A DNA stretch of 64,000 nt from contig NZ_NFIZ01000009.1 in NCBI RefSeq assembly GCF_002159625.1, positions 1 to 64,000 of the forward strand, given 5' to 3'. The stretch comes from Olsenella sp. An285 (GTDB lineage Bacteria > Actinomycetota > Coriobacteriia > Coriobacteriales > Atopobiaceae). The translations under genes and the position numbers were made by a program. Below, piece by piece: positions 28,567 through 42,571 of the stretch. Numbering within the stretch: the stretch's first letter is position 1; each line of letters begins with the position of its first letter. The notes below the pieces were generated by a model, which saw nothing but the letters and a program-made list of their open reading frames with translations, searched no databases and was not told where the DNA came from.

Positions 28567-29787
28567 ATGGCACGAGACATGACCGGGCCGGGGACCAACC
28601 GCCGCGGCATCTCATCCTTCGCCCAGCGCGTGGCGGGCCAGCCCGCCCAGAGCGGCAAGGTCGGCGGCAAGCAGGGGCCCCTGGGGAGACTCTACCTCTC
28701 CCAGCTCATTCCCGCCCTGCTCATCGTGATCCTTGGCGTCATCAACATGTGGTCCTGCGCCCTGGCGCTCGAGGGCGAGGTCAACTTCACGAGCCATCTC
28801 GCCGGCATCGCGCTCGGCTTTGCCGCCGCCGTGGTGGTGTGGCGCTACGACTACCGCAACCTCGCGAACCTCACCACGGCGCTCTTTGTTCTTTCCTGCG
28901 TCATGCTCGCGCTTCCGCTCGTCCCCGGCCTCGGCGTGGAGGGCGGCCTGGGAGGCCTTGGCTGGGTGCGGGTGGGCCCGCTGCGCTTCCAGCCCTCGGA
29001 GCCCTCGAAGCTCGTGGTGATTGCCCTCATGGCCTCCGCCTGCGCCCAGTACAACGGCAAGATCGAGGACTTCCGGGACTATGCCAAGCTCTGCGGCACG
29101 CTTCTCGTGCCGCTGCTCCTCATCATGGTGACCGACCTCGGCACGGGACTCATGATCTTCTTCACCGGCGCCACGATCATCATCTGCAGCGGCGCCCCGC
29201 GCGCCTGGGTGCTCGCCACGATCGCGCTCATCGTGGGCGTCTCCGCCCTCGTGGTCATAACCTCGTCCATTGACGGCCTGCCCCACATCCTCAAGCCCTA
29301 TCAGCTCACGCGCCTCACGGTGTTCCTCGACCCGGAGGGCTCGAGCTCGGAGGATGCCTACAACCTCATCCAGGCCATGATCGCCATCGGCTCCGGCGGG
29401 CTTCTGGGGAAGGGCTTCGGCAACGCATCGCAGTCTCTGCTCGGCTTTGTCCCGGAGTCCCAGACTGACTTCATCTTTGCCACCTTCGCGGAGCAGTTCG
29501 GCTTCGTGGGCTCGGTCCTCCTTCTCGCCCTCTACGCCTGGATGATCCTTGCGACCATCTTTCTCGCCATGAAGGTCGACTCGACCTTCTCCAAGCTCGT
29601 GCTCGTGGGCTGCGCCGCCATGTGGACGTTCCAGGTCCTTGAGAGCGTGGGCATGTGCATCGGCATCATGCCCATCACCGGCATCCCGCTGCCCTTCATG
29701 ACCTACGGATCGTCCTCGATGGTCACGCAGCTCGCGGCGGTGGGCCTGGTTCAGTCTGTGTGGAGGCATCGTCAGAAGGTTGCGTAG
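28567..29787 (+). CDS. rodA: Rod-shape SEDS glycosyltransferase RodA
   Basis: RodA polymerises lipid II into glycan strands. The 406-residue product has about ten membrane helices and the SEDS signatures RFQPSEPSKLV (about 137-147), TDLGTGLM, the catalytic loop with PESQTDFIFA, and the C-terminal LPFMTYGSSSM. The first 45 residues are polar and extended compared with E. coli RodA. ATG at 28567 follows mrdA by nine bases. A GC-rich hairpin (29786-29816) overlaps the stop. Confidence 0.95.
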   Translation: MARDMTGPGTNRRGISSFAQRVAGQPAQSGKVGGKQGPLGRLYLSQLIPALLIVILGVINMWSCALALEGEVNFTSHLAGIALGFAAAVVVWRYDYRNLANLTTALFVLSCVMLALPLVPGLGVEGGLGGLGWVRVGPLRFQPSEPSKLVVIALMASACAQYNGKIEDFRDYAKLCGTLLVPLLLIMVTDLGTGLMIFFTGATIIICSGAPRAWVLATIALIVGVSALVVITSSIDGLPHILKPYQLTRLTVFLDPEGSSSEDAYNLIQAMIAIGSGGLLGKGFGNASQSLLGFVPESQTDFIFATFAEQFGFVGSVLLLALYAWMILATIFLAMKVDSTFSKLVLVGCAAMWTFQVLESVGMCIGIMPITGIPLPFMTYGSSSMVTQLAAVGLVQSVWRHRQKVA

Positions 29788-30273
29788 CGGGCCCGCGCGT
29801 CTGCGTCGCGCCCGCTTGGCCGCCGGGTTCCCCCGCTCGTCCTTCTCGCCTTGACGAACCTGCGCGTCCCGCGCTCCCGTCAGTTTTGTCATGCGATTGG
29901 GCATATTGCCTTGCCGCGGCTTCGCGAGCCGGCGTCTAGGCCAAATTCTCGGGCGATTGGGCAAAGGACTTGATATAAAGATCCGACGTAATCAAGAATG
30001 CCACCCAATTTCCGCAAAATGTTGGCGAGAAGAACAAGCGGGACGTTACGTCAGCACTCGTTCCCGGTGTGGAAAGCTCGAGGGCATCAAGGGTTTTGCC
30101 CAATCGCGGGGGTGTCCTGACGGGGCCGTCAATCTCTAAAGACGGTGCGGGCCTCTGTCCCGAGGGTGGCGTCGAGCAACTATAATGTTAGGCTCCGAGA
30201 GCCTGGGCCCGCTTGCGCCTTGGCTCCGCCTAGACGTTCGTCCGGGGATTCCCGGGGAGGGGAGCGCCCGCAA
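29788..30273. other. 486-bp intergenic region between rodA and the DUF697 gene
   Basis: No convincing coding region is present. The middle part (about 29880-30115) is visibly richer in A+T than the surrounding genes and holds a 155-bp inverted-repeat element at 29953-30107. An extra copy of its end motif GCGATTGGGCA lies at 29893-29903, exactly 60 bases upstream. A TATAAT hexamer at 30181-30186 probably serves the next gene, although its -35 position (TCCCGA) is poor. Confidence 0.7.
29953..30107. mobile_element. MITE-like 155-bp element with 22-bp inverted ends
   Basis: The left end (29953-29974, GCGATTGGGCAAAGGACTTGAT) and the complement of the right end (30086-30107) match at 19 of 22 positions, with the first 13 identical. 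The interior has no open reading frame of note and is AT-richer than the chromosome around it. Size, terminal inverted repeats and lack of genes fit a miniature inverted-repeat element. An alternative is a set of operator sites for one regulator, since a further GCGATTGGGCA copy lies outside. No target-site duplication was identified. Confidence 0.5.
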
Positions 30274-31224
30274 ATGGCTTCCAGGAAGGTTTCCATGGGG
30301 AGGGTCTTCGAGGTCATCTCCTCGGGCCGGAGCTCGTTCGCCGCGCGCGACGAGCGCGTCGTGCTTCGCGTGCACGTCGACCCCTCCTGCCCCCGGGAGG
30401 TCGCTCGCTGCGTGCGCCGCGCCCTCGGCGCCGAGCGCCCCGGGGGAGTCGTCGACGTGAGGGACACGCTGCCCCCGCTCCCGGGCGAGGAGGTCCCGGA
30501 TGCCGCCCTGGTCCTCACGGCCGACGGCAGGGGCGCCGAGCTCGTGGCGTCCTACGCGCGCGCCGGCGTGAGCGTGGGCGTTGTCGTCGAGGGCGCCCTC
30601 GAGGCCCCTCGCCTCGACCTTCCCGAGCAGGCCATGGGGCTCGTGAGCGTGATCGCGGCGTCGAGCCCGGAGACCCTCACGGACAAGCTCGCGTCCTGGC
30701 TCGCCGGGGCGACGGACAAGCCCATCGCGCTCGCCGCCTGCTTCCCGTTCTGTCGTCGCGCAGTGACCGACGACTTGGTCTCGCGCTGCGCCATGGAGAA
30801 CGCGGCCGTGGGCGCGGTGAGCCTCGTCCCCGGGTCCGACCTGCCCATCATGTGCGCCAACCAGGCCATGCTCGCGCTTGACATCGCGGCCGCGTACGGG
30901 CGCGACGTGAGTCTCGAGCGCGCCGCGGAGCTCGCCGGGGTCATCGGTGCCGGGTTTGCGTGGCGAGCCCTCGCCCGCACCCTCGTGGGCCTCGTCCCGG
31001 GGATAGGCGGCCTCCTCAAGGCCGGCATAGGATTTGGCGGAACCGTCGCCACCGGGCGCGCCCTGCGTCTTCGCCTGGAGCTCGAGGACGGCACGGTCGA
31101 GATTCCGATGCCCGAGCCCCGACCCGCCGACGCGGCTCCGGCCCGCGCGTCCTTCTCGGCCCCGCGTCCCGAGTCCTCGCGTTCCGACGACGGGTACGTC
31201 ACGGTGGGGGAGGCCGGAGCATGA
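30274..31224 (+). CDS. DUF697 domain protein
   Basis: The 316-residue product has a hydrophobic glycine-rich C-terminal region (about 195-270, with ALDIAAAYG and LVGLVPGIGGLLKAG) typical of DUF697, a family often tied to membrane-associated GTPases. No GTPase motifs are present here. The N-terminal part looks like a degenerate nucleotide-binding fold, with LPPLPGEEVPDAALVLTA where a G-domain would have its DxxG and following strand. The tail is disordered. ATG at 30274 has GGGAGGGGAG upstream. Its stop overlaps the radical SAM start (ATGA), so the genes are coupled. Function unknown. Confidence 0.75.
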   Translation: MASRKVSMGRVFEVISSGRSSFAARDERVVLRVHVDPSCPREVARCVRRALGAERPGGVVDVRDTLPPLPGEEVPDAALVLTADGRGAELVASYARAGVSVGVVVEGALEAPRLDLPEQAMGLVSVIAASSPETLTDKLASWLAGATDKPIALAACFPFCRRAVTDDLVSRCAMENAAVGAVSLVPGSDLPIMCANQAMLALDIAAAYGRDVSLERAAELAGVIGAGFAWRALARTLVGLVPGIGGLLKAGIGFGGTVATGRALRLRLELEDGTVEIPMPEPRPADAAPARASFSAPRPESSRSDDGYVTVGEAGA

Positions 31225-39916: not shown

Positions 39917-40269
39917 CAGCAACGCCTCTCGAGATCGCAAAGGTGGCCGCCCTCGCGGCGGACTCGAAGAAGGCTGGCCAGATCGTCCTTCTCGACCTGT
40001 CCTCCAAGACCGACGTCTGCGACTACTTCCTCATCTGCTCCGGTGAGAACACGCGCCAGGTGGATGCCATCGTCGACGAGGTGCGCGAGAAGGTCTCGAA
40101 GAACTGCGGCATCTCTCCCATCTCCTGCGAGGGGCGCGAGAGCCTCTCCTGGGTCCTCGTGGACTACGGCTCTGTCGTGGTCCACGTGTTCCGCCCCGAG
40201 TCTCGCGACTTCTATCGCCTCGAGACCCTCTGGGGCGACGCCCCCCGCGTCGACCTCGACCTTGCCTAA
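39913..40269 (+). CDS. rsfS: Ribosome silencing factor RsfS
   Basis: RsfS binds L14 and blocks subunit joining when nutrients are low. The 118-residue product has the family blocks GQIVLLDLSSKTDVCDYFLI, SGENTRQVDAI and DYGSVVVHVF. It overlaps the yqeK stop (ATGA). Its own TAA stop (40267-40269) is shared with the first bases of repeat cluster B, so the mobile unit abuts the end of the gene. Confidence 0.96.
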   Translation: MTATPLEIAKVAALAADSKKAGQIVLLDLSSKTDVCDYFLICSGENTRQVDAIVDEVREKVSKNCGISPISCEGRESLSWVLVDYGSVVVHVFRPESRDFYRLETLWGDAPRVDLDLA

Positions 40270-40362
40270 AACGGGACGTGCCTGAAACGTGCAAGATTTT
40301 GCATATTTAGGGACGTGCCTGAAACGTGCAAACTTCTGCACGTTTCAGGCACGTCCCGTTTT
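40268..40362. repeat. REP/BIME-like cluster B, left flank of the RAYT gene
   Basis: The outer arms are a perfect 26-bp inverted repeat (40268-40293 and 40337-40362, beginning AAAACGGGACGTGCCTGAAA). Inside, the right half folds into a 21-bp perfect hairpin (40310-40330 with 40337-40357, loop AACTTC). It is an inverted copy of cluster C on the other side of the transposase gene and lies in the same orientation as cluster A. Confidence 0.9.
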
Positions 40363-40451
40363 GTGCAAATTCTTGCATAAAACAAGTTGATGATTAACAT
40401 TTATCCTTTAATTCGATAGCATCCTCTTAATAGTCGTTTATGGGGGTGCAC

Positions 40452-41204
40452 ATGAGAGGGCCAAGAGAAAAATCGGAGCACGGCTTCTACCATGTCGTTA
40501 TGAGGGGGAGCGGGAGGCAGATTCTCTTCGAAGACGACGCCGCGCGGTGCCGCTTTCTCGAGCTCTTGTCGCACGGTCTCGAGAAGTGCAAGGTCAAGCT
40601 GCTCGCATGGTGTCTTATGAGCAATCACGTTCACCTTCTCGTCTGTGACGAGGAGGAGGGCCTCAGCAACCTTCTCCATGATCTTCAGACATCGTTTGCC
40701 ATCTACTTCAACCACACCACCGGACATGTGGGGCATGTCTTTCAGGGCAGATTCTCGAGCGTTGCGATTTGCTCTGACGAGCAGCTGCTGCAGGCAGTTC
40801 GTTACATTCATGACAACCCGGTAAGGTCGGGTCTGTCCCCGCGGGACGAGTATCCGTGGAGCAGCTACCACGAGTATGCCCCTGGCCCTGCCAGCCTTAT
40901 CTCCCCAGAGCTCATTCTTGACATGGTTGGCGGTAGGGAGCGTTTTAGTAAGTACAGCGAAGAGGGCGGTTCTGACGGCTATGTCTTTCGATGCGGGGTG
41001 CGCTACGACGACGAGGATGCGATGTTGGTTGCCCGTCGTGCGCTTGGCTCTGTTGCTCCCACCGCTCTGAAGGCGCTGGTTCCGTCCATGCGCGACCCTC
41101 TATTGCAGCAGCTCAGGGATGCGGGGCTCACCGTTCGTCAGATCGAGCGCGTCACCGGAATCGGTCGCAGTACCATCTCTCACGCAACTCGGCGACGCGC
41201 ATGA
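40452..41204 (+). CDS. REP-associated tyrosine transposase (RAYT, Y1/HUH family)
   Basis: The 250-residue product is a single-strand Y1 transposase of the IS200-like RAYT branch. It has the HUH metal site in SNHVHLLV (His59, His61), the catalytic tyrosine region VRYIHDNPVRSG (Tyr118), and a C-terminal helix-turn-helix (about 226-247). Such proteins are thought to move or maintain short palindromic repeats. ATG at 40452 was chosen over 40440 because GGGGGTG precedes it. The gene and its leader are AT-richer than the neighbours, suggesting transfer. It sits in the convergent gap between rsfS and dinB, enclosed by inverted repeat clusters. Confidence 0.92.
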   Translation: MRGPREKSEHGFYHVVMRGSGRQILFEDDAARCRFLELLSHGLEKCKVKLLAWCLMSNHVHLLVCDEEEGLSNLLHDLQTSFAIYFNHTTGHVGHVFQGRFSSVAICSDEQLLQAVRYIHDNPVRSGLSPRDEYPWSSYHEYAPGPASLISPELILDMVGGRERFSKYSEEGGSDGYVFRCGVRYDDEDAMLVARRALGSVAPTALKALVPSMRDPLLQQLRDAGLTVRQIERVTGIGRSTISHATRRRA

Positions 41205-41209
41205 TGCTC

Positions 41210-41303
41210 AAAACGGGACTGCCTGAAACGTGCAGATATCTGCACGTTTCAGGCACGTCCCCAAATATGCAAATCCTTGCACGTCTCAGGCACGTCCCGT
41301 TTT
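41210..41303. repeat. REP/BIME-like cluster C, right flank of the RAYT gene
   Basis: This is the reverse complement of cluster B with a few changes. One base is missing in the left arm (CGGGACTGCC), making it 94 bp. The strong hairpin now comes first (41215-41234 with 41241-41261, loop GATATC) and the degenerate one second. The outer right arm, TGCACGTCTCAGGCACGTCC onward, runs 41278-41303. Confidence 0.9.
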
Positions 41304-41311
41304 GGGCAAGG

Positions 41312-42571
41312 CTACTCGTCGTCCTTGTGCATCGGTGCGGTGCCGGTGGTGTGGCCGCGGAACCTGAGCTCGCGGCCGTAGCCCACGACGCCGTCGCCAA
41401 ACCGCTCCCTGAGGCGGTCCGTCACCCGACCGAGCTCGGACCTGTCGCGTGCGCTCTGCCCCTCATCCTCGGGGAAGAGGCTCATCTGGCTCGGGGCGGC
41501 GGCACCAAAGCCGGAGACGCCCACGCCGACGAGGCGCACGCGATGCCCGGGCGCCCACAGCTCGTCGAGGAGCCCCACCGCAACCTCGCCGAAGACCCGC
41601 TCGTCGCTCGTGGGGGCGGGGAGCTGCCGCTGCGCCGTCCTGGCATGGCTCACGTCGAACTTGAGCTTGAGGGTTACCGTGGAACCTTCAAGCCCCTTCT
41701 TGCGCAGGCGTCGCCCCGTCATGGCGGCTATGTGCCTCACGGCCGCCACGAGGTCGTCGCGATCGGCGAGGTCCCGGTCGAACGTCCGCTCGTTGCTCAC
41801 GGACTTGACCTCTTCGGGCGCGGCGGCCTCCACCACCCGGCTGCGCTCCTCTCCGGCCGCGCGCACCCTCATGCGTGGCCCGAGCACGCCGAACTCCCGC
41901 TCGAGCGCTCGCTCGTCCGCGCGGGAGAGCTCGCCGAGCGTGCGGATCCCCAGGTCCTTGAGGCGCCGCTCCGTCGCAGGTCCCACGCCGCTCATCGCGC
42001 CAACGGGTAGCGGTGCCAGAAAGGCCCGCTCCGTGCCGGGGAAGACCACGGTGAGCCCGCGCGGCTTCTCGCGCTCCGAGGCGATCTTCGCGACGGTCTT
42101 GTTCACGCCCAGGCCTATCGAGCAGGTGACGCCGAGCTCCGCCACGCGCGCCTGTATGCGCCGGCAGATGGCGATGGGGCTCTCTCGCGAGTAGCGCCCC
42201 GGGGTCACGTCGAAGAAGGCCTCGTCGATGGAGACCTGCTCGACGAGCGGCGTCTCCGCGCAGAGCACGTCCATGACCGAGCGGCTCACCTCCCGGTAGC
42301 GGGCGAAGTTGCCGCGGGTCCAGATGGCGTCGGGGCAGAGGCGGCGCGCCGTGGCGGACGGCATGGCGGAGTGGACCCCGTAGCGTCTCGCCTCGTAGGA
42401 GGCGGTGGAGACGACGCCCCTGTGCTCGGCGCTTCCGCCAACGATGACGGGGAGCCCGCGCCACTCCGGGTGGTCGAGCTGCTCCACCGAGGCGAAGAAC
42501 GCGTCGAGATCGAGCAGGCCCACCGCCGGGCCCGCCCAGTCGAGGGCATCGCTGTTGCGCACGTCATCCAT
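41312..42571 (-). CDS. dinB: DNA polymerase IV (Y family)
   Basis: A translesion polymerase. The 419-residue product has DLDAFFASVE (metal Asp), SIDEAFFDV (catalytic Asp-Glu), GLGVNKTVAKIAS and a helix-hairpin-helix thumb region. QMSLF near residue 375 fits the sliding-clamp binding motif. It follows the histidine kinase gene by seven bases on the minus strand. No ribosome site precedes the ATG at 42571, but TATAAT (42578-42583, minus strand) ends six bases before it, so a leaderless transcript is possible. No LexA box was recognised. Confidence 0.94.
   Translation of the reverse strand: MDDVRNSDALDWAGPAVGLLDLDAFFASVEQLDHPEWRGLPVIVGGSAEHRGVVSTASYEARRYGVHSAMPSATARRLCPDAIWTRGNFARYREVSRSVMDVLCAETPLVEQVSIDEAFFDVTPGRYSRESPIAICRRIQARVAELGVTCSIGLGVNKTVAKIASEREKPRGLTVVFPGTERAFLAPLPVGAMSGVGPATERRLKDLGIRTLGELSRADERALEREFGVLGPRMRVRAAGEERSRVVEAAAPEEVKSVSNERTFDRDLADRDDLVAAVRHIAAMTGRRLRKKGLEGSTVTLKLKFDVSHARTAQRQLPAPTSDERVFGEVAVGLLDELWAPGHRVRLVGVGVSGFGAAAPSQMSLFPEDEGQSARDRSELGRVTDRLRERFGDGVVGYGRELRFRGHTTGTAPMHKDDE

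Follow-up and report, generated by a model that had tools for sequence, protein, structure and literature searches.

MITEs such as the Correia elements are non-coding, about 150 bp long, bounded by inverted ends and situated near genes, and looping operators of the Lac type have their sites on one face of the DNA helix. To our knowledge, REP elements have so far been tied to one enzyme type. According to the passages that deal with them in PMC3116915, RAYTs are encoded by single-copy genes that are fixed in place and flanked by their own repeats, the repeats are dispersed through extragenic DNA as inverted pairs, and several such gene-repeat pairs occur per genome.

Here we describe an intergenic block in the window, the 64,000-nt stretch of Olsenella sp. 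An285 DNA under analysis, and the repeat family to which it belongs. Both the dispersal of this element and its association with a cognate gene are well supported. On balance, sequence comparison makes it somewhat probable that the block is a solo, non-autonomous element whose spread depends, or formerly depended, on a single nuclease-like partner gene.

Anatomy of the intergenic block

Arms A and C (Table 1) are inverted with respect to each other, 111 nt apart and identical at 19 of 22 positions, just as the sequence-only reading had claimed for its 22-nt inverted ends; a pair as good was found once in the window and in none of 40 dinucleotide shuffles of it. The third end copy which that reading had placed exactly 60 nt upstream was also recovered, GCGATTGGGCA occurring exactly at 29893 and 29953, with a reverse-strand copy at 30097-30107, and the low GC content was borne out as well (the two 150-nt tiles 29875-30024 and 29950-30099 have 51%, and all others between 29350 and 31200 have 59-80%). 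Two features had been absent from it, the degenerate inner arm B and the GGCGAGAAGAAC box. The arrangement A-B-box-C is common to the window block and seven other copies in this genome. The distance from A to B in other copies is 37 or 38 nt, the box is degenerate in copy L021, and the L014 copy has a 10-nt insertion between B and the box. Extra end copies like A', 60-61 nt outside the arms, are also found at L013, L014, L018, L020 and L021.

Table 1 Features of the block and its surroundings, with positions in the window
Feature	Position	Strand	Basis or remark
rodA/ftsW-like gene, upstream of the insertion	28567..29787	+	query for the orthologous junction
GGCGAGAAGGAC box, outside the element	29839..29850	-	similar boxes next to the clusters at the partner gene
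A', extra end copy 60 nt upstream	29893..29903	+	exact motif match
Arm A, core CGATTGGGCAAAGGACTTGAT, weaker outer half reaching ~29939	29953..29974	+	motif search
Arm B, degenerate	29991..30011	-	7 mismatches to the working pattern; clear in sister copies
GGCGAGAAGAAC box, outer end of B	30024..30035	+	box search and copy alignment
Arm C, core CGATTGGGCAAAACCCTTGAT (reverse strand), weaker outer half reaching ~30123	30086..30107	-	motif search
TATAAT	30181..30186	+	within 30 nt that are unchanged in the sister genome
Downstream gene	30274..31224	+	follows rodA within 22-59 nt in 28/30 genomes; junction comparison

The TATAAT hexamer, which is absent from the output of the promoter scan, might possibly stand in as promoter for the gene now separated from rodA by the insertion. 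Boxes of the GGCGAGAAGRAC type were counted 34 times in the window (1.45 expected), and several exact copies lie inside long open frames in a Gly-Glu-Lys register; the role of the box is uncertain and little weight is placed on it because its abundance is partly a codon effect in this genome. Rfam gave no match near the block, the sole match in the window being a tRNA, and an RNA element was rejected on this ground.

Dispersed copies in the genome

A search of this genome with the 21-nt core, allowing up to three mismatches, gave 39 matches, and the reversed pattern used as a control gave none. With a lone match on contig 5 dropped, 38 copies remain, grouped into 14 clusters. Of the 13 loci that hold them, L018 has two clusters, and the window, L011-L017 and L019-L022 have one each. 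The genome-wide search, which the sequence-only reading had named as a check, thus reveals a dispersed family. The partner gene lies between the two L018 clusters; the remaining 12 are found elsewhere. As read from the gene calls, the genes on either side are convergent for seven of the 14 clusters, co-directional for six and divergent for none, and one cluster (L013) was left unassigned because the only long gene call on its left-hand side looked spurious.

The repeats of this family are mostly inverted pairs in extragenic space, and their core consensus, CGATTGGGCAACAYCTTTGAT, is no palindrome. As in MITEs, the block contains no gene, has terminal inverted repeats and exists in several copies; apart from the nuclease-like gene, no gene was found between ends of this kind. 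The spacers are also homologous among copies, with up to 78% identity over 114 nt, and the copies have therefore spread as blocks. Four motif matches were obtained in IMG/VR, none with an inverted partner in the stretches examined, and these look like chance matches. Of the 47 stretches from the genome collection, those outside the sister genome were left out of account, nearly all being single matches in unrelated organisms.

The partner gene and its species-specific motif

The partner gene is a 303-aa open frame (G000:C1:234.2-235.1 kb, G000 being this genome) bracketed by two mirror-image clusters, in which steps of 38 and 84 nt recur on either side. Homologues are present in all 31 genus genomes, with 4-17 family matches per genome, and in 49 of 119 genomes sampled across the class (E up to 1e-10). 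The best homologue was examined from 17 other genus genomes, 14 at 54-93% identity and three at 30-35%. It occupies the slot between livF and thrB in 15 of these genomes and, judged by eye, has a related motif on its flanks, inverted or direct, in 16, the exception (G024) having only boxes and no motif there.

The motif is species-specific, being for example TTGGGCAA in this genome, TTGGGTGGC in G019 and G017 and TTGTGTGCAA in G018. When the 31 genus genomes were searched with up to two mismatches, the motif of this genome had 30 matches here, 37 in the sister genome G015 and 0-5 in the other 29. The G019 motif had 41 matches in G019, 23 in G017, where the motif at the gene is almost the same, and 0-3 in the other 29 genus genomes, with none in this one. 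A control pattern was matched in neither genus set and once in a genome of the same order. A phage or plasmid origin was considered and rejected: the partner protein had no phage match, and its one match in the plasmid collection, a hypothetical protein by annotation, has 25% identity and comes from a Collinsella aerofaciens record.

Predicted fold of the partner protein

An AlphaFold2 model of the partner protein (18 sequences, pLDDT 89, pTM 0.87) predicts a Vsr/DUF559-like PD-(D/E)XK fold for residues 163-277. In VIA-align comparisons the catalytic domain of I-Bth0305I (3r3p) came out best (Z 9.7, rmsd 2.4, 95 of 97 residues aligned) and was the only match to exceed the stated background of the tool, followed by NGO0050 (Z 7.5, rmsd 2.7, 91 aligned), Vsr (1cw0; Z 7.4, rmsd 3.9, 107 aligned) and TnsA (Z 5.4, rmsd 4.2, 110 aligned); Foldseek returned no match with E up to 0.001 for the model. 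Weak profile matches were obtained to DUF559 in 12 of the 18 members (best 9.9e-6) and to MTES_1575 in six (best 7.8e-6). For the partner protein itself there was no Pfam match up to E 10, nothing useful in NCBIfam or PADLOC and nothing under E 0.19 in a sequence search of the PDB, and NCBIfam also gave nothing useful on eight family members and two homologues. D211, E221, H227, D236, K239 and N241 are invariant in the 18 sequences, and two residues beyond the invariant glutamate most of them have Q, as opposed to the K of the classical motif.

Other family members and the wider class

In this genome the gene family gave ten matches, of which two fall within one gene, and thus has nine members. 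Flank repeats of at least 16 nt within 700 nt were found for all nine and for 20 of 25 class homologues (those with a locus, excluding this genome and four orthologue loci), compared with none of 27 rodA flanks and three of 25 tiles of the window, and local inverted pairs with arms of at least 14 nt for 6/9, 15/25, 0/27 and 2/25, respectively; both controls are imperfect because they consist mostly of coding DNA. Against shuffles, 20 of the 25 class homologues stood out. The L133-type repeat is a second family dispersed in this genome. In G139, which belongs to another taxonomic family, the flank motif had 19 matches (four at the gene, 15 elsewhere), in pairs 100-144 nt apart.

Each of the eight further members of the nuclease-like family in this genome (L127-L134) is flanked by repeats of its own, inverted or direct. 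Copies of the G139 element at L171 and L174, in two genera, have a common spacer and perhaps a common flanking stretch of 128 nt, a sharing that suggests an old common copy.

Helical phasing of the arm distances

The distances between inverted arms are 122, 132, 142, 143 and 153 in this genome, 122-152 in G015, 91-134 in G019, 100-144 in G139, and 104 and 115 in the L133 family. Only distinct distances were tested, for a period of 10.4 bp and against 20000 random draws, of which 0 were as good for G000, 10 for G015, 1 for G019 and 17 for G139. G017 was not significantly phased (1648 of 20000 draws as good), and the distinct distances in G008 and the L133 family were too few for the test. Stepping by about 10.4 bp is therefore seen in four of the five systems tested, with figures that are indicative, because the period was chosen after inspection of the data and the copies are of common ancestry.

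Steps of one helical turn suggest that the arms come together while the DNA is double-stranded, pointing to a protein that would loop the DNA between them. Hairpin pairing as the constraint was rejected, arm-to-arm similarity within copies being weak here (179 and 78 of 5000 shuffles as good) and absent in G019 and G139.

Presence, absence and conservation among relatives

From the rodA stop to the next start there are 22-59 nt in 28 of the 30 genus genomes with the locus (G020, the 31st, matched without a locus), 486 nt in this genome and about 554 nt in the sister G015, both of which hold the element. An orthologous element was recognised in G015 for nine of the 13 loci of this genome, in a comparison with 25 G015 stretches all selected for holding the motif, and turnover is therefore slow. 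L011 is a true difference: its flanks are contiguous in G015, where a 247-nt gap holds other repeats instead, and the same slot in other species has yet other repeats, the species' own motif variant (G012, G013, G019) or neither (G008). Comparison with relatives, which the sequence-only reading had named as a check on its MITE-like interpretation, thus revealed presence and absence at two places. No excision was seen, nor any target-site duplication, for which the flanks at both places were too diverged, and no copy was caught as recently moved. One intergenic slot, compared at L235-L246 downstream of a putative asd-like gene, holds several unrelated repeat types that differ by species, as if it were a landing hotspot.

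Between G000 and G015 the core arms are identical at 340 of 360 positions and the rest of the same intergenic stretches at 2052 of 2598, a comparison biased toward the core because six of the seven G015 stretches were selected by exact motif match. At the window locus alone, where the G015 junction was located independently through rodA, the corresponding values are 32/36 and 317/437.

Possible mechanism and alternative explanations

A MITE-like movable block and a cluster of operator sites had been offered as alternatives by the sequence-only reading. The former agrees with the dispersed family and with presence and absence at two places, and falls short in that the arms are site-like too and the partner gene lies outside the window. 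What survives of the latter is that the arms look like protein sites; ordinary operators are disfavoured because the clusters sit at gene 3' ends. Since the arms are conserved above the spacers and their distances are helically phased, block and sites both hold, and the two are not mutually exclusive.

From the dispersal of the repeats, their position around the gene, the motif variants, presence and absence, and phasing, we infer that the product of the partner gene may bind, cleave and mobilise them. Acting as a dimer or together with a host factor, the protein would bind the inverted arms on one face of the helix, loop the 90-155 bp between them and then nick or cut, and repair would lead to new element copies at other sites. 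The partner gene would be fixed in place and vertically inherited, the motif drifting along with it, and copies would be gained and lost at gene 3' ends. Sites and partner gene could also be linked by regulation alone.

The arms may instead be sites of the partner protein acting as a looping regulator or architectural protein, the nuclease fold being a relic and the copies beneficial to the host. Helical phasing, the sites adjoining the partner gene itself and the sister comparison of core arms (340/360 against 2052/2598) would all agree with such a role, but this conservation is biased by selection and amounts at the window locus alone to 32/36 against 317/437. The homologous spacers, hence spread as blocks, the different repeat types in one slot across species and the lack of any cluster between divergent genes among the 14 (seven between convergent genes, six between co-directional ones, one unassigned) make this explanation unlikely in our view. 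It is very improbable that the dispersed sites titrate a harmful nuclease, site loss being punished as in addiction; persistence in one place and core-arm conservation would be explained, but the spread of sites would not follow from titration itself.

Ordinary MITEs derived from a now-lost insertion sequence, with the nuclease-like gene as a passenger, would have inverted ends, small size and presence/absence differences like those seen here. However, the pairing of gene and motif is seen again in orthologues, in members of the gene family and in another taxonomic family, and the gene stays put while the motif changes with it, and we regard such an origin as quite improbable. Least probable is a mechanism of the RAYT/REPIN kind, with the repeats carried as single-stranded hairpins by a Y1 (HUH) transposase. 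The layout is that given for RAYTs in the relevant passages of PMC3116915, and Y1_Tnp genes occur in 28 of the 31 genus genomes, with five matches here; yet G019, which is 99% complete, has 41 motif copies and no Y1_Tnp match, the Y1_Tnp gene of the window is flanked by another repeat, and a single-stranded hairpin would not predict helical phasing.

Mobilisation of the block through the partner gene may have a wider bearing. It is possible, though we hold this with some doubt, that an undescribed class of mobile repeat systems exists across Coriobacteriia, composed of immobile, vertically inherited PD-(D/E)XK genes, several kinds per genome, that copy their own phased sites, with protein and motif co-evolving; double-stranded cutting and repair would spread the inverted sites of each gene around the chromosome. 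The relatives' own gene-repeat pairs suggest a little-known kind of bacterial genome passenger. If true, a second, unrelated enzyme type would follow the logic of a gene plus dispersed repeats, this way of life would have arisen more than once, and some of the repetitive DNA between the genes of a widespread bacterial group would be accounted for. The helical phasing offers a mechanism that is open to in vitro test.

Comparison with known systems

The system resembles RAYTs and REPINs in that a fixed gene is flanked by its own repeats, which are dispersed as extragenic inverted pairs, and in that several distinct gene-repeat pairs exist per genome. It differs in that the partner is Vsr/DUF559-like by predicted fold and not Y1, that single arms are not palindromes, whereas REPs are imperfect palindromes, and that the arm spacing is helically phased. 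The window also has, at 40255-41315, a Y1_Tnp gene (40488-40817) between a pair of inverted copies (92 nt, 91%) of a repeat of about 105 nt. This repeat is in part palindromic and contains GGGACGTGCCTGAAACGTGCA, and gene and copies together look like a RAYT with its REPs.

With I-Bth0305I, Vsr, DUF559 and MTES_1575 the partner protein has in common the modelled fold of residues 163-277 and the weak profile matches, and it differs from them in an extra N-terminal half. These nucleases are not linked to dispersed repeats in the papers searched, and nothing on such repeats in Coriobacteriia was found in a literature search that mostly did not reach subscription journals. Like MITEs of the Correia type, the block is about 150 bp long, has inverted ends, lies near genes and is non-coding, but it has three arms and a box and a cognate chromosomal gene, and no parent insertion sequence was found for it. 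As in Lac-type looping operators, the arms lie on one helical face; unlike them, the copies are situated at gene 3' ends and are dispersed as blocks.
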